Assembly: GCA_015062305.1 (NCBI GenBank)
Contig: SUUX01000004.1
Span: 1-64,000, forward strand
Direction of reading: 5' to 3'
Length of the DNA: 64,000 nucleotides
DNA from: Alphaproteobacteria bacterium
GTDB lineage: Bacteria; Pseudomonadota; Alphaproteobacteria; RF32; CAG-239
Position numbers and translations under genes: made by a program. Positions 8,227-58,366 of the stretch are shown piece by piece. The stretch's first letter is position 1. Each line of letters starts with the position of its first letter. The notes under the pieces were generated by a model. That model worked only from the letters and a program-made list of their open reading frames with translations. It was not told where the DNA came from and made no database searches.

Positions 8227-10011
8227 ATGTCAAACAGAGAATTCCCCATCCACACTGTCCAAACAGATTGTCAAGACTGCTACAAATGTGTACGCAGATG
8301 TCCGGTAAAAGCAATAAAAATAGAAGACAACTCAGCTATGATTGTCTCAGATCTGTGCATAGCTTGCGGAACATGTTACAAAGTTTGCCCTGCTAAAGCC
8401 AAACAACCCAGAGACGATTTAGCCAGAGCCAAATATTTAGCATCATCAAACAAAGAAATTTATGTTTCTTTAGCTCCATCATGGATTACAGATTTTCCGG
8501 GCATTTCTGCAGAACAAATGGTTGCCGCAATTCGCAAACTTGGTATCAGAGGCGTAAGCGAAACCGCCCTCGGAGCTCAAGAAGTTACAGCCCAAACAGC
8601 CAAAGTCTTAAAAGATTCACATTCAAAAAACGAAAAAAAACTGTTTATATCTACTGCATGTCCGGCTGTTGTTGAATATATAGAAAAATATCTTCCGGAG
8701 CTGACACCCAATTTAGCGAATATTGCATCTCCGCTAATCACACATTGCCGCATGCTCAAAGACAAGTTTGGTTCACACATAGAAACCATTTTCGTTGGCC
8801 CTTGTATTGCAAAAAAATTTGAAGCAGATCGCCATCCAGATCTTTTAAGTGTCGCCATAAGTTTTTCCGATTTACGCCAATGGTTTAAAGAAGCTGGCAT
8901 AAACCCATCTTCTCTCACTCCCGGCGTTTACGATGTTTTTGTTCCAAAAAGATCAGAAGAAGGTAATATTTATCCTATAGAAGGTGGAATGTTAGAGACT
9001 CTTAAGGCCTACAAACTAAGCGACGAAATATACACATCACAAATAACCGGCATTTACAGTATTCAAGATGAATTGTCCAACCTAGATCCCGACAATCTGG
9101 ATCGCACAACCTTTTTAGAATGTTTGGCTTGCTATGGCGGTTGTGTTTCTGGCCCTTGCACCAACAATAAAAGTTCCGGACTTCAAAAAAGAATAGACAT
9201 CTTAAAACAAACATCTTTTAGTAAAGATTCTGGCAAACGCAAGCCTCAGTACAACATAAACATCAATTATCGAGCTCAAAACATGCCAACTCAAGATCAA
9301 AATTTTGATGAGGCAGCAATAAGAAAAGTCCTAACCAAAATAGGCAAATCATCTGCAGAAGATGAGCTGAATTGTGGTGGCTGCGGTTATGATACTTGTC
9401 GCAATTTTGCCAAAGCCCTAATCCAAGGCAAAGCAGAGCCTGAAATGTGTGTATCTCACATGAAAGAACAAGCCCAGCGCAAAGCTAATGCTCTTATTCG
9501 CTGTATCCCATCTCCTATTGTTATTGCCGATTCTAAATTAAATATTATTGAATACAATGAAGAGTTCAGAGATACATTTTGGAATGAAGAAGAACACTCA
9601 GATATATATGATTACAACAATCTCAACGGAGCCAATCTAAGAGATTTCATCAGTTTCACCAATCTATTCTCTGCTTCATTAGATTTAGAACAAGACATCC
9701 ATAAAGAACACGTCCGCCACGAAGATAAAATGTTTGATGTTGTAGTCTTCAACATAGATAAAAAGCAAAGTGTCGGAGGAATTATAGAAGACGTTACAAA
9801 TTCAGAAATGCACAAAGAAAAAATAGCAGCCAGAGCTAAAGAGGTCATTCAAAAGAACTTGGCCACAGTACAACAAATTGCCTGCACATTAGGAGAACAC
9901 ATGGCAGAAACCGAAGTTCTTTTGCGTTCCATTGCCAAAGACTATGCCGCCGATGAACTAGAAGCATCTGATATACAGATTCGCACCAATTCTTCAGAAA
10001 ACAGGTCTTAA
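8227..10011 (+). CDS. Sensory group C [FeFe] hydrogenase with PAS domain (HydS/HsfB-like)
   Basis: The 594-residue protein reads, in order: two [4Fe-4S] clusters (Cys 15/18/21/25 and 44/47/50/54), the H-cluster domain, a second Fe-S domain (Cys 383/386 and following, CGGCGYDTC) and a PAS domain (about 415-520). H-cluster motifs are STACP (Cys 145), VGPCIAKKFE (Cys 193) and ECLACYGGC (Cys 299/302/306). The proton-relay Cys of catalytic enzymes (TSCCP) is Ala here, as in known sensory enzymes, so slow turnover and H2 sensing are likely. It is followed after 3 bp by a SpoIIE phosphatase, the arrangement of the phosphatase-linked group C3. It is cytoplasmic. The N-terminal half could be confused with a catalytic enzyme, but the PAS tail and neighbours argue otherwise. 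Confidence 0.9.
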   Translation: MSNREFPIHTVQTDCQDCYKCVRRCPVKAIKIEDNSAMIVSDLCIACGTCYKVCPAKAKQPRDDLARAKYLASSNKEIYVSLAPSWITDFPGISAEQMVAAIRKLGIRGVSETALGAQEVTAQTAKVLKDSHSKNEKKLFISTACPAVVEYIEKYLPELTPNLANIASPLITHCRMLKDKFGSHIETIFVGPCIAKKFEADRHPDLLSVAISFSDLRQWFKEAGINPSSLTPGVYDVFVPKRSEEGNIYPIEGGMLETLKAYKLSDEIYTSQITGIYSIQDELSNLDPDNLDRTTFLECLACYGGCVSGPCTNNKSSGLQKRIDILKQTSFSKDSGKRKPQYNININYRAQNMPTQDQNFDEAAIRKVLTKIGKSSAEDELNCGGCGYDTCRNFAKALIQGKAEPEMCVSHMKEQAQRKANALIRCIPSPIVIADSKLNIIEYNEEFRDTFWNEEEHSDIYDYNNLNGANLRDFISFTNLFSASLDLEQDIHKEHVRHEDKMFDVVVFNIDKKQSVGGIIEDVTNSEMHKEKIAARAKEVIQKNLATVQQIACTLGEHMAETEVLLRSIAKDYAADELEASDIQIRTNSSENRS

Positions 10012-10014
10012 CCC

Positions 10015-11190
10015 ATGAACAACTCCTTATACATAGAAATAGGCTCTGCTCAACAACAAAAATTCGGTGAAGATTGTTTTGGCGACACCATCTTTTCAAA
10101 GAAAATACCGGATGAAAGACGTATAATTTCCATTTTATCAGATGGTTTAGGTAGTGGTGTAAAAGCAAATATCCTCTCTTCCATGACCACACGCATGGCC
10201 ATGAAGTTTGTTGAGAGCAATATGGAGCTGGCTCGCTCCTCTGAAATCATGATGGACGCCCTTCCTATTTGTCAGGTTCGTAAAATCAGCTACGCTACAT
10301 TTTCCGTTGTTGATACTGAATTAGAAGGCAAAACCCGTGTGTTTGAAATGGACAACCCTCCATTTATTCTTCTCAGAGGCGATAAACCCGTAAACGTGCG
10401 TTACAGAGAAATATCCTCTCCCAGATGGAAAGAACGCACCATAAACATTGCTCAGATGACCAATCAAGAAGAAGACCGTATCATTCTAATATCTGATGGT
10501 GTCAGTCAGGCCGGTTTAGGCAACCGCCAATATCCCCTTGGTTGGCAACGTCAAGGCTGCTTGAATTTTGCCCTTGAGAAAGTTCATAAAAACCCCCATA
10601 TCTCAGCTCATGAGCTTGCCAATGCCATTGTACAAGAAGCTCTTAGCAAAGAGGTTGCTCATCATGCCGGAGATGATATCAGCTGTGTTGTACTATATTT
10701 CCGCAAGCCTCGTAAACTCTTGGTTCTCACCGGCCCTCCTTTTGAAGAAAGCAGAGACAAAGAATTTGCAGAACTCGTCGCTGATTATGACGGAAAAACC
10801 GTAATTTGTGGGGGAACAACTGCCAATATTGTAGAAAGAGAACTTTGTCTCAAATGTGAAATAGATAAGACATCTTTTGATCTCAAAATTCCCATGTGTT
10901 CTACCATGAATGGCGTAGATTTAGTTACAGAAGGAATTTTAACCTTGACTGATGTGTATCGTATGCTAAAAGAAGGCATAGATACAGACAAAAACAACGG
11001 CGCCACTCGTTTGGCAAAAATGTTACTTGACAGCGACAAAATTGATTTTGTTGTTGGCACCAAAATAAACATTGCACATCAAGATCCCAATTTGCCAATA
11101 GAATTAGAAATTCGCCGCAACATTGTCAAAAAGATTTTCCGCATACTGCAGGACAAATACTTAAAAGAAATTAGTGTCAGATACATATAG
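10015..11190 (+). CDS. SpoIIE-family (PP2C) phosphatase linked to sensory hydrogenase
   Basis: The 391-residue protein has a PP2C/SpoIIE domain in residues 1-235. Metal-binding motifs are ILSDGLGSG (about residues 40-48), LISDGVSQAGLG, and HHAGDDISCVVLYF. The last 150 residues (from RKLLVLTGPP) form a separate region I cannot assign, with VICGGTTANI in it, probably specific to hydrogenase-linked phosphatases. The protein should dephosphorylate a Ser/Thr-phosphorylated partner in response to the redox or H2 state read by the upstream hydrogenase. No matching anti-sigma factor or anti-anti-sigma factor is in the window, so the target is unknown. The start is 3 bp after the hydrogenase stop, implying translational coupling. 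Confidence 0.88.
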   Translation: MNNSLYIEIGSAQQQKFGEDCFGDTIFSKKIPDERRIISILSDGLGSGVKANILSSMTTRMAMKFVESNMELARSSEIMMDALPICQVRKISYATFSVVDTELEGKTRVFEMDNPPFILLRGDKPVNVRYREISSPRWKERTINIAQMTNQEEDRIILISDGVSQAGLGNRQYPLGWQRQGCLNFALEKVHKNPHISAHELANAIVQEALSKEVAHHAGDDISCVVLYFRKPRKLLVLTGPPFEESRDKEFAELVADYDGKTVICGGTTANIVERELCLKCEIDKTSFDLKIPMCSTMNGVDLVTEGILTLTDVYRMLKEGIDTDKNNGATRLAKMLLDSDKIDFVVGTKINIAHQDPNLPIELEIRRNIVKKIFRILQDKYLKEISVRYI

Positions 11191-29090: not shown

Positions 29091-31157
29091 TTAAAACAAC
29101 TTCAACACACCTTGAGAAGCTTGTGACGCCAGTGATAAGGCATTAATCGCCAATTGTTGACGAGTTTGCAAAGCCAGCATATTGGCAGATTCTTCATTCA
29201 TATCCGCCAACGTGAGTTTATCGGCACCCTCGGTAAGAATATTTATCAAATTCTCGGTAAAATCTTGCCTGTTCATCACAATACTATAATTATTACCAAG
29301 CTCTCCGGCAAATGCACGCAATTGACCAATTGCTGATGTCAGTTCTCCTATTGAGCGAGAAATATCCTCAACCGTTGCCCATTCTGTTGTAGTTAGTCCG
29401 ATATTTGCGGCAGAAATGTCTTTGCCAACCACATCAATAAAAGCACTGCCATCTTCATTAAATTTGATTTTTAATGTTTCATTTTTGAGCAAGTTTACAC
29501 CCTTATATTTGGCGTCATCAATCAAATCATCATATTGGCTCAAAATCTTTTGATATTGGCTGATATCATAACCATCAGCCGGAGTTTCACCGCCTCCGAC
29601 ATCTCGACGTAGACTAAAGGCAACCGGATTCTCACTGCCACCAACCGTGATGGTGCTAAATGTTCCCCAATCATCTCCCATAAAATTATCCATACCGGAG
29701 ATATCTGTGTCATAACCGCCCCATTCTATATCCCCTAAGCTTTTTAGGCTCATTAATTTGGCAGAAGAACCATCTTCAGAAAGACTGACGATAACACCAA
29801 CTGCGGTTTTGCTACCTTTATAGGCGTCATAATCATCGGCACTGCTGTAGGTGAAATCTGCATACATAATATCGCCGATTTGTGGGGCAGCATTGCTGCC
29901 ATCGGCAGACTTTGCTCCACCATCGGTAAAACAATTTTCTAAAAGCTGGAAACTACGAACTGAAAAGGCACTACCCTTATAGCCGTCGCTACGATGACCA
30001 TTAGTGGGATCGAGCTTCCAAGAATTGAGGTAGCTTCCCTCAGAAGACGACCAAATGAAAGAAGCTAATTGCTCAGCATCACTGCCCATTTTACCTAAAG
30101 CTGTATTTATGGTGTTGAAATGCTCTGCATCAGCTCCTGCTGTTCCCCAATAATAACTATCTGATATCTGTGTTGTATCCGTGCCATACAAGCCATCTGC
30201 CAATTCTCCTATAGATGGCAAATACCAGGTGCCTTTACCAAAATTGGCATCTTTTTCGCTAACAACATAATAGTTATATGCCGCATCTGCCGCCGGTGTA
30301 TCAACAGTTGTTTGAGTAACCAACAATTTGGTGTTCATCTCTCCATCATAAATCGTGGCCGCATCAGCATTAAACACCTTGCGTGCCAACTCTCCATTGG
30401 TAGAAATATTTTTGGCAGTATCCAATGTTATTTGTGAGCTTCCCTCTGCAACCACTCCATGCACATAGTCACCGCTGGTTTTGATTGTAATATCGCTCAA
30501 AATAATTTCGGCACCATTGCTAGCCAAAATAGCTCCGGTTGAACTATAAATTGCTCCATTTGTTGATGTATAATCCAGCTCAATATTTGATACTTCTACA
30601 CCGGTGCCAGTAAATTTGAGCAAATTGTCGCCACCACTATAACTTATTTTATTTCCATTACCATTTATGATAATATCACTGGTGTCAATTTCTAATGGTG
30701 CATCCAAGGTCAAATCATCGGCAAGCACCAATTTGGTTGCGCCATTGGTTATCATTTGTTTGATATCATCAGCACTGGCTCCGGCTGAGATAACCTCATA
30801 ACCATCATCAATAAAATCTTGCAATTTGTCTTCTTTGGACAAAGAATTTCCACTTTCATCAAGAACTTGAGTTGCTACCGCTTTGGCTTGCTCCAAAAAA
30901 GAGGTGGCGGTTTCAATTGCGGTGGTGGCAGCCTTGATGGTCTGAATTCCTTGCCCCATAGAGTCAAGCAGGGCATCTAGGTCACTGGCTCTGTTGTTCA
31001 AAGAACGTGCTGTATAAAAAGAAGAGGGATTGTCGATGGCTGAATTGACCTTTTTGCCGGTGGACAGACGTTCTTGGGTCAAATCCATCAGGCTATTGGT
31101 CTTTTGCAAGCTCAGCAAATTGCTGCGCATGCTTGCTGTCAAACTAATCTTTGCCAT
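29091..31157 (-). CDS. Chimeric flagellin with beta-helix and hypervariable lectin domain (copy 1)
   Basis: The 688-residue protein has flagellin D0/D1 ends: residues 1-100 (MAKISLTASMRSNLLSLQ, RLSTGKKVNSAIDNP) and the last 110 (ISRSIGELTSAIGQLRAFAG, LALQTRQQLAINALSLASQA). Between them lie a beta-helix-like stretch (about 115-265, repeated IIINGNGNKISYSG-type strands) and a DUF1566-like C-type-lectin region with GKGTWYLPSIGEL, IWSSSE and FSVRSFQLLENC. A further segment (GDIMYADFTYS, KTAVGVIVSL) resembles the part that usually precedes WYLP in such lectins. Ordinary flagellins have nothing like this centre. Compared with copy 2 (56285-58366) the ends are nearly identical while the stretch after WSSSEG is hypervariable (29967-30035). 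It is probably exported and displayed on a filament; no other flagellar gene is present. Confidence 0.9.
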   Translation of the reverse strand: MAKISLTASMRSNLLSLQKTNSLMDLTQERLSTGKKVNSAIDNPSSFYTARSLNNRASDLDALLDSMGQGIQTIKAATTAIETATSFLEQAKAVATQVLDESGNSLSKEDKLQDFIDDGYEVISAGASADDIKQMITNGATKLVLADDLTLDAPLEIDTSDIIINGNGNKISYSGGDNLLKFTGTGVEVSNIELDYTSTNGAIYSSTGAILASNGAEIILSDITIKTSGDYVHGVVAEGSSQITLDTAKNISTNGELARKVFNADAATIYDGEMNTKLLVTQTTVDTPAADAAYNYYVVSEKDANFGKGTWYLPSIGELADGLYGTDTTQISDSYYWGTAGADAEHFNTINTALGKMGSDAEQLASFIWSSSEGSYLNSWKLDPTNGHRSDGYKGSAFSVRSFQLLENCFTDGGAKSADGSNAAPQIGDIMYADFTYSSADDYDAYKGSKTAVGVIVSLSEDGSSAKLMSLKSLGDIEWGGYDTDISGMDNFMGDDWGTFSTITVGGSENPVAFSLRRDVGGGETPADGYDISQYQKILSQYDDLIDDAKYKGVNLLKNETLKIKFNEDGSAFIDVVGKDISAANIGLTTTEWATVEDISRSIGELTSAIGQLRAFAGELGNNYSIVMNRQDFTENLINILTEGADKLTLADMNEESANMLALQTRQQLAINALSLASQASQGVLKLF
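29967..30035 (-). other. Hypervariable region of flagellin copy 1 (DGR-like VR)
   Basis: This 69-nt, 23-codon stretch follows the WSSSEG codons and precedes FSVRS. Against the same stretch in copy 2, 15 codons differ and 8 are identical. Pairs include AGC/TAC, TAC/AAC, CTC/GAC, AAT/CGT, ACT/GAT, CAT/AAT, GGT/AAT and AGT/GAT. Of 23 base changes, 12 are at codon position 1, 10 at position 2 and 1 at position 3. Twenty have A in at least one copy. The 54 nt on the 3' side (29910-29963) and 18 nt on the 5' side (30036-30053) are identical in both copies. This matches adenine-specific mutagenesis of AAC/AAT-rich template codons. Diversifying selection is the alternative. Confidence 0.7.
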
Positions 31158-56284: not shown

Positions 56285-58366
56285 TTAAAACAACTTCAAC
56301 ACGCCTTGAGAAGCTTGTGACGCTAATGATAGGGCGTTAATCGCTAGTTGTTGGCGAGTTTGCAAAGCCAGCATATTGGCAGATTCTTCATTCATATCCG
56401 CCAAAGTGAGCTTATCTGCGCCCTCAGTCAGAATGTTTATCAAATTCTCGGTAAAATCTTGCCTATTCATCACAATACTATAATTATTGCCAAGTTCTCC
56501 GGAAAATGCACGCAACTGATTTATGGCTGAGGTCAGTTCTCCTATCGAACGAGAAATGTCCTCAACCGTTGCCCATTCTGTTGTGGTTAGTCCGATATTT
56601 GCGGCAGAAATGTCTTTGCCAACCACATCTAAAAAAGAGCCTCCGGTTTCATTAAATTTGATTTTCAGCGTTTCATTTTTAAGCAGATTAACACCCTTGT
56701 ATTTGGCATCATTTATCAAATCATCATATTGATTCAAAATCTTTTGATATTGGCTGATGTCATAACCATCTGCCGGAGTTTCACCGCCTCCGACATCTCG
56801 ACGTAGACTAAAGGCAACCGGATTCTCACTACCTCCGACCGTGATGGTGCTAAAGGTGCCCCAATCAGAGCTATCTTCAGTAAAATCCTTCATTCCGGAG
56901 ATGTCTGTGCCATAACCACCCCATTGCATAGTCCCTAAGCTTTTTAAATTCATAATTTTAGCTGATGAGCCATCTTCAGAAAGACTGACGATAATACCAA
57001 CTGCGGTTTTGCTACCTTTATAGGCATCATAATCATCGGCACTGCTATAGGTGAAATCTGCATACATAATATCGCCAATTTGTGGAGCAGCATTACTGTC
57101 ATCAGCAGGCTTTGCTCCACCATCGGTAAAACAATTTTCTAAAAGCTGGAAACTACGAACTGAACAAGAAAAGGTATCATTCTTATAGTCGAGGTTACGA
57201 TTACCATTATCGGTATGGAGTATCCAAGAACGGTCGTTGTATCCCTCAGAAGACGACCAAAGAACACCGCTCATCTGCTCAGCATCACTGTCAAGTTTAC
57301 CTAAGGCTGTATTTATGGTATTAAAATGTTCTGCATCAGCTCCTGCTGTTCCCCAATATTCACTACCTGATATCTGTGTTGTATCCGTGCCATACAAGCC
57401 ATCTGCCAATTCGCCAATAGATGGCAAATACCAGGTACCTTTTCCAAAATTGGCGTCATCTTCACTAACAACATAGTAATTATAGGCAGCATCTGCCGCC
57501 GGTGTATCAACAGTTGTTTGTCCTTCAACCAGAAGCTTGGTGTTCATCTCTCCATCATAAGCAACCGCCGCATCGGCATTAAACACCTTGCGTGCCAACT
57601 CTCCATTGGTGGAAATATTTTTGGCGCTATCCAATGTTATTTGTGAGCCACCCTCGGCAACCACTCCATGCACATAGTCACCGCTGGTTTTGATTGTAAT
57701 GTCGCTCAATGTAATTTCGGCGCCATTACTGGCCAAAATTGCACCAACAGAATCATAAATTGCCCCATTATTAGAGGTATATTCTATTTTGATATTAGAC
57801 AATTCCACACCGGTGCCAGTGAATTTGAGCAAATTGTCGCCACCGCTATAACTTATTTTATTTCCGTTACCATTTATGATAATATCACTGGTGTCAATTT
57901 CTAATGGTGCATCCAAGGTCAAATCATCGGCAAGCACCAATTTGGTTGCGCCATTGGTTATCATTTGTTTGATGTCATCTGCACTTGCTCCGGCAGATAT
58001 AACCTCATAACCATCATCAATAAAATCTTGCAATTTGTCTTCTTTGGACAAAGAATTTCCGCTTTCATCAAGAACTTGAGTAGCTACCGCCTTGGCTTGC
58101 TCCAAGAAAGAAGTGGCGGTTTCAATAGCTGTGGTAGCTGCTTTGATGGTCTGAATTCCTTGCCCCATAGAATCAAGCAGGGCATCGAGGTCACTGGCTC
58201 TGTTGTTCAAAGAACGTGCCGTATAAAAAGAAGAGGGATTGTCGATGGCAGAATTGACCTTTTTGCCGGTGGACAGACGTTCTTGGGTCAAATCCATCAG
58301 GCTATTGGTCTTTTGCAAGCTCAGCAAATTGCTGCGCATACTCGCTGTCAAACTGATCTTTGCCAT
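56285..58366 (-). CDS. Chimeric flagellin with beta-helix and hypervariable lectin domain (copy 2)
   Basis: The 693-residue paralogue of 29091-31157 has the same order: flagellin N terminus, beta-helix-like strands, lectin-like region (GKGTWYLPSIGEL, WSSSEG, CSVRSFQLLENC), segment GDIMYADFTYS to SLRRDVGGGE, and flagellin C terminus. The first 185 residues are identical to copy 1 in amino acids, and the C-terminal 150 nearly so, but scattered silent base changes exist. The largest divergence is after WSSSEG (57173-57241). Two extra residues (Ser-Cys, codons TCT TGT) sit between the variable stretch and SVRS. It is probably a filament protein displaying a variable lectin. It is 148 bp upstream of rodA on the same strand, probably a separate transcript. 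Confidence 0.9.
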   Translation of the reverse strand: MAKISLTASMRSNLLSLQKTNSLMDLTQERLSTGKKVNSAIDNPSSFYTARSLNNRASDLDALLDSMGQGIQTIKAATTAIETATSFLEQAKAVATQVLDESGNSLSKEDKLQDFIDDGYEVISAGASADDIKQMITNGATKLVLADDLTLDAPLEIDTSDIIINGNGNKISYSGGDNLLKFTGTGVELSNIKIEYTSNNGAIYDSVGAILASNGAEITLSDITIKTSGDYVHGVVAEGGSQITLDSAKNISTNGELARKVFNADAAVAYDGEMNTKLLVEGQTTVDTPAADAAYNYYVVSEDDANFGKGTWYLPSIGELADGLYGTDTTQISGSEYWGTAGADAEHFNTINTALGKLDSDAEQMSGVLWSSSEGYNDRSWILHTDNGNRNLDYKNDTFSCSVRSFQLLENCFTDGGAKPADDSNAAPQIGDIMYADFTYSSADDYDAYKGSKTAVGIIVSLSEDGSSAKIMNLKSLGTMQWGGYGTDISGMKDFTEDSSDWGTFSTITVGGSENPVAFSLRRDVGGGETPADGYDISQYQKILNQYDDLINDAKYKGVNLLKNETLKIKFNETGGSFLDVVGKDISAANIGLTTTEWATVEDISRSIGELTSAINQLRAFSGELGNNYSIVMNRQDFTENLINILTEGADKLTLADMNEESANMLALQTRQQLAINALSLASQASQGVLKLF
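57173..57241 (-). other. Hypervariable region of flagellin copy 2 (DGR-like VR)
   Basis: This is the counterpart of 29967-30035. Variable codons here include TAC, AAC, GAC, CGT, ATA, CAT, ACC, GAT, AAT, AAC, CTC, GAC, AAT, GAT and ACC; the invariant TCT TGG, CTC, AAT GGT, CGT and TAT AAG codons lie between them. Several AAC/AAT codons remain, consistent with a less mutated copy of an A-rich template. Flanks 57110-57163 and 57242-57259 are identical to copy 1. Confidence 0.7.

Follow-up and report, generated by a model that had tools for sequence, protein, structure and literature searches.

Flagellin variable patches in an alphaproteobacterial genome and their probable origin in a diversity-generating retroelement of the same bacterial family

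The 64,000-nucleotide stretch of DNA analysed here (the window; positions 1 to 64,000 of contig SUUX01000004.1, assembly GCA_015062305.1) comes from an alphaproteobacterium of the GTDB lineage RF32; CAG-239 and carries two flagellin genes with a short hypervariable patch inside a predicted lectin-like domain. Comparison of this genome (G000) with its relatives makes it very probable that the patch is a variable repeat (VR) written by a diversity-generating retroelement (DGR) that belongs to this bacterial family and has flagellin as its predicted home target. An original prediction, made from the window alone, had proposed template-directed mutagenesis of adenines in a flagellin; as to origin, this is borne out by cassettes lying in cis to flagellins in relatives and by adenine-specific differences in five genomes, while the check that it had proposed, a search for a reverse transcriptase (RT) and a template in G000 itself, gave a negative result for this assembly. 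The DGR origin of the patch is thus supported from sequence, a verdict that covers origin and not present activity in the G000 organism: the window holds DGR target genes, not the element itself.

Results

Copy 1 of the flagellin (688 aa; 29091..31157, minus strand) and copy 2 (693 aa; 56285..58366, minus strand) are 91% identical, and both exceed the Pfam cut-offs for Flagellin_N (54.4 bits each) and Flagellin_C (37.5 and 38.4 bits, respectively). The conserved helices of copy 1 agree with solved filament structures, flagellins are among the 50 matches listed for its full-model search, and its central insert bears the lectin-like domain. The G000 assembly (1.47 Mb, 19 contigs, completeness score 100%) gave 15 matches to the protein query, grouped manually into nine flagellin places, four of which are full-length flagellins, 89-100% identical to the query: the two in the window and, from the same protein search, one each on contigs C14 (G000:C14:51069-53135) and C7 (G000:C7:72683-74749). 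By eye, P0002 and P0005, set against L004, L005, L006 and L003, resemble chimeras of two flagellin paralogues of G000 with an unaltered patch, which may reflect paralogue recombination or an assembly artefact.

All four copies share one layout, in which a 5' fixed block, WSSSE (30039..30053 in copy 1, minus strand), is followed by alternating variable and fixed codons and then by a 3' fixed block, SVRSFQLLENC (29931..29963, minus strand), within which the template homology of the relatives described below stops; the DNA of both blocks is identical in 4/4 copies. Four-way codon alignment with column statistics places the VR of copy 1 at 29964..30038 (minus strand), and codon alignment places that of copy 2 at 57164..57244 (minus strand), the latter including two inserted codons (6 nt) at its 3' edge, which the original prediction did not have. 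Realigned codon by codon, the window copies reproduced its counts for 29967-30035: 15 of 23 codons differ, 15/15 nonsynonymously, and the 23 base differences are split 12/10/1 over codon positions 1/2/3, with A in one window copy at 20 of the 23; the three without A lie at position 1 of codons 377, 383 and 391. The near-freedom of fixed codons and flanks from silent changes that it had reported, unlike the rest of the genes, likewise holds in the four-way alignment, in which the variable stretch starts one codon earlier than in the window pair.

Over codon columns 375-401 of this alignment, 19 are non-synonymous, one is synonymous, five are identical and two are gapped. In tests that assume independence of columns, 35 of the 40 variable base columns of the patch (375-399) contain A, compared with 195 of 329 for columns 117-369 and 413-end (p=4e-4); 6 of the 40 are third positions, compared with 212 of the 329 (p=2e-9); and amino-acid-invariant codons are without silent change in 21 of 22 cases within columns 370-412, compared with 65 of 120 cases in neighbouring columns (p=1e-4). 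A is missing from every copy in five variable columns of the patch, and columns 387, 393 and 397 among these are third positions. Silent divergence on both sides of the patch but not in its fixed codons points to repeated overwriting from one source, and the near-absence of silent changes in these codons suggests that writing continued after the four genes had diverged. Almost all variable codons are explicable by mutation of the A bases of AAC, AAT, ACC or AAA; because a template inferred from the copies makes this reading circular, the tests were based on column statistics and on the real templates of relatives. Five more flagellins, 90-93% identical outside the patch, share just 7-11 of 25 patch residues.

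Such templates lie beside RTs in related genomes. PF00078 matches were present in 17 of the 58 genomes searched, G000 being one of the 58 and without a match. Where the stretches around ten RTs of the genus were scanned in translation for templates, an asparagine-rich copy of the flagellin patch, ending in stops, adjoined the RTs of G018, G032 and G002, and in three genomes of the family (G002, G086 and G087) the cassette runs in the order template repeat, RT, Avd, flagellin. On a 350 kb contig of G002, the template, the RT (467 aa; PF00078, 60.2 bits), an Avd-like protein (116 aa; bAvd PF22296, 61.3 bits, cut-off 40) and a 786-aa patch flagellin (Flagellin_N and Flagellin_C over cut-off) follow consecutively on one strand. 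The cassette of G086, from another genus of the same family, has its flagellin truncated by the contig end, and that of G087, from the genus of G086, is divided between C91 (template and RT start) and C5 (RT end, Avd and a complete 773-aa flagellin). In both G018 and G119, a single contig holds the template, RT and Avd, and the patch is on another contig; in G032, the template and RT sit at the edge of a contig, and a flagellin patch was not found in that genome; G058 has a template with a 34-residue RT-like match only, and an Avd match on a separate contig.

Avd exceeds the PF22296 cut-off in G002 and G018; the NCBIfam Avd model is the best match in G002, G018 and G119, below its cut-off of 80, and in G086 and G087 the protein was recognised by sequence motif only. 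The RT contains GLPIGNLTSQ, and the motif of DGR-type RTs is [ILV]GxxxSQ; its best solved-structure match is 8ub7 (E=2.3e-30), which we take to be the DGR enzyme of phage BPP-1. Of 153 genomes across the order, 25 contained the RT (E<=1e-60) and 22 the domain (E<=1e-15), with both present in six (G002, G018, G086, G087, G119 and G160). The patch flagellin P0049 and the DGR-type RT P0092 come from the same source (longest contig 7,300 bases) and probably represent another cis cassette.

Other RTs of the genus, with GNFTSQ or GNQTSQ motifs (G012 and G016), had no nearby template matching flagellin patches in the scans made, in which the G018:C136 RT of this group was scanned for N-rich templates only and L153 yielded no patch to scan. 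A phage origin is not favoured either, as no RT relative was found in viral contigs, where 12 stretches matched a pattern and none was confirmed. A seemingly unusual multi-template arrangement occurs at L193, L196, L201, L113, L117 and L206, where DGR-like RTs are preceded by 2-5 tandem asparagine-rich template-like repeats; near L113 and L117, a small Lcl-like protein (262-265 aa) bears a matching patch.

Adenine specificity is clearest where template and flagellin patch come from the same genome. From the codon after WSSSE through CAGCTT/CTGCTT, with two gap columns each dropped in G086 and G119, 79 of 198 A sites but only 5 of 285 non-A sites were changed in the five genomes pooled (p=1.6e-29). 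Individually, differences at A and at other sites numbered 20/41 and 1/55 in G018, 13/40 and 0/59 in G002, 16/40 and 3/56 in G086, 15/37 and 1/59 in G119, and 15/40 and 0/56 in G087. Set against templates of other species, the four copies of G000 again show the greater difference at A, with 82/164 A and 53/220 other sites changed (G032), 82/164 and 62/219 (G018), and 79/156 and 67/228 (G058), with p=0.0015 to 0.19 in single comparisons. The flagellin patches of L192 (G086) and L216 (G119) carry a 2-nt insertion relative to the template that shifts the frame and may stem from failed writing or from an assembly error. At L111, the G002 template (~9880-9971) has an in-frame stop at a tryptophan position; in the flagellin copy, an A change turns this codon into one for cysteine.

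GC-rich inverted repeats lie 31-36 nt downstream of the template homology in G002, G018, G087 and G119, where stems of 5-10 bp enclose loops of 4-5 nt; the stem is 9 bp long in a G016 patch copy and measures 0-5 bp in about ten tabulated patch genes of G003 and G012. By folding z-score, G087 (-3.6) and G016 (-3.9) stand out, whereas G002 (-1.1), G018 (-1.5) and G119 (-0.9) do not. The possible counterpart 3' of the copy 1 patch is a weak, imperfect inverted repeat at 29882..29920 (minus strand; coordinates by eye), and the hairpins of the G000 copies have exact stems of 4-6 bp with z=-3.8 (copy 1), -4.4, -1.9 and -1.6. According to the excerpt of PMC3240598 used here, BPP-1 requires a structure of this kind 3' of the variable repeat, and we count the hairpin as a lead.

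The patch lies in a predicted Lcl_C-like (C-type-lectin-like) domain, residues 292-401 of copy 1 (29955..30284, minus strand). The C-type-lectin-like fold named in the original prediction gained modest support: similarity to the C-terminal domain of Legionella Lcl (PDB 8q4e) is modest, the carrier here being a flagellin, and a Foldseek search with the isolated domain model (mean pLDDT 73.5) gave no significant match, the same region being better modelled in the full protein. In G003, of the same genus, 13 domain copies occur (L134 and others), and those scanned or read by eye are flagellins. The domain is also present, partly repeated, in frames of 1,300-1,900 aa unlike flagellins in G006, G008, G026 and G028.

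The search for a writer in G000 itself was negative. The original prediction had offered an RT and a template in the same genome as its check, and the assembly yielded neither: PF00078 and the G018 RT as query found no DGR-type RT, and a genome-wide pattern search for a template, with variable sites free and <=3 mismatches, returned the four patches only. PF22296 had 0 matches, although Avd is not part of every DGR. At the counterpart of the cassette site of G018 and G032, beside an rsmB-like gene, G000 has the neighbours in order on a 90 kb contig with a 142-aa gene instead; gene names were matched by eye, and the comparison covered the site used by G018 and G032.

Discussion

The patches of G000 most probably derive from the family's DGR, and their writer has likely been lost recently or sits in an unassembled piece of the genome. 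In the mechanism that we envisage, RT and Avd would convert an RNA copy of the template into cDNA, making errors at adenines, and this cDNA would then take the place of the VR in a flagellin gene, whether in cis or in trans, as far as the conserved 3' block; the four flagellins of G000 would be in-trans targets. About 20 residues of the lectin-like domain, which would face outward on the filament, would be rewritten in this way, and the rewriting would probably alter what the flagellum binds. Going further, and with slightly less than even confidence, we propose that a retroelement rewrites the filament: one DGR would feed a family of flagellins (13 domain copies occur in one genome), each present many times over along the filament, and make the flagellum a large, renewable display of lectin variants, holding or escaping what the cell meets, and the element would be gained and lost while flagellins already written stay behind as a stored repertoire.

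Whether a DGR is present and active in the organism, its cassette missing from the assembly only, is the alternative that survives best, and we regard it as plausible, if somewhat doubtful. The silent sites of the G000 patches are clean, of the 28 RT places in the order, 20 are no more than 3 kb away from the end of a contig, and contigs break inside or just past the cassette in G018, G032, G086 and G087. Fragmented genomes, however, have much sequence near contig ends regardless, the G000 assembly is in 19 contigs with a full completeness score, several domain carriers without an RT have few contigs as well, and G000 yielded not even a piece of an RT, Avd or template, the known site there being occupied. 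The patches of G003 are informative here: 10 of its 13 loci gave a patch, of which the eight with standard spacing were tabulated, and their drifted silent sites rule them out as proof of present DGR action, so that G003 appears to represent an older orphan state, a large repertoire without its writer. The G000 patches are cleaner than those of G003, which suggests that writing ended recently or continues unseen.

A second possibility, that recombination or gene conversion among paralogues shuffles pre-existing patches made by a DGR long ago, is improbable. The genome offers nine flagellin places for such exchange, P0002 and P0005 look chimeric around an unaltered patch, and conversion could homogenise the fixed blocks too; however, the four patches of G000 are all distinct, their differences fall on individual A-type sites and not on whole blocks, and near-identical genes can yield chimeras as assembly artefacts. 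Least probable by far is a reading without any retroelement, in which a surface loop under strong diversifying selection has changed by ordinary point mutations. It would accommodate the wholly non-synonymous set of 15/15 differing codons in the window copies, the failure to find an RT or template in G000 and the patches of G003 (13 domain copies, no RT found), which vary at third positions too and may be maintained by selection alone. Selection at the protein level does not, however, predict interspersed fixed codons free of silent change (21/22), and templates beside DGR-type RTs match the patch with differences concentrated at A (79/198 against 5/285).

A family DGR acting on flagellins has likenesses among known systems, which we compare here on the basis of excerpts from the papers cited. 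Like the BPP-1 element (Mtd, Avd and RT; PMC3240598), the system of the relatives combines template, RT and Avd with A-specific changes and with a candidate for the GC-rich inverted repeat 3' of the variable repeat; unlike it, the G002 element is chromosomal, with no relative of its RT found in viral contigs, and the target is a flagellin rather than a phage tail protein. The BPP-1 hairpin has a GRNA tetraloop, which the G018 loop GACA fits, whereas the loops in G002, G087 and G119 are 5 nt long. The closest parallel is the pilus-tip DGR of Bacteroides (PMC12632263), likewise a cellular element of host-associated bacteria that diversifies a surface appendage; there the target is the tip subunit of a pilus, here the bulk subunit of a filament with several target paralogues per genome. 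Proteolytic flagellins (PMC5595980) similarly carry a functional domain inserted in the central region, but that insert is a metallopeptidase, and the excerpt does not mention targeted rewriting.

In the open-access literature searched, which left most subscription papers and preprints outside its reach, we found no description of a DGR-diversified flagellin system. PMC6642488 names 'flagellin' once, as one of the DGR target annotations that it lists, in a passage that gives no locus, taxon or mechanism, the main text of the survey PMC8144416 contains no word beginning 'flagell', and the excerpts of PMC8987985 and PMC8867640 describe no flagellin target; phage tail proteins, membrane-anchored surface proteins and pilus tips make up most of the targets that the excerpts name. 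The bulk subunit of a motility filament differs from these as a site of targeted hypermutation, and it would link swimming, adhesion and antigenic identity. With templates, targets and cassettes laid out, the role of DGRs in host-associated bacteria becomes testable, and genomes with and without the writer make the gain and loss of a DGR measurable.

Away from the flagellins, an iron-only hydrogenase-like gene and, immediately after it, one for a SpoIIE-like phosphatase occupy positions 8227-11187 of the window.
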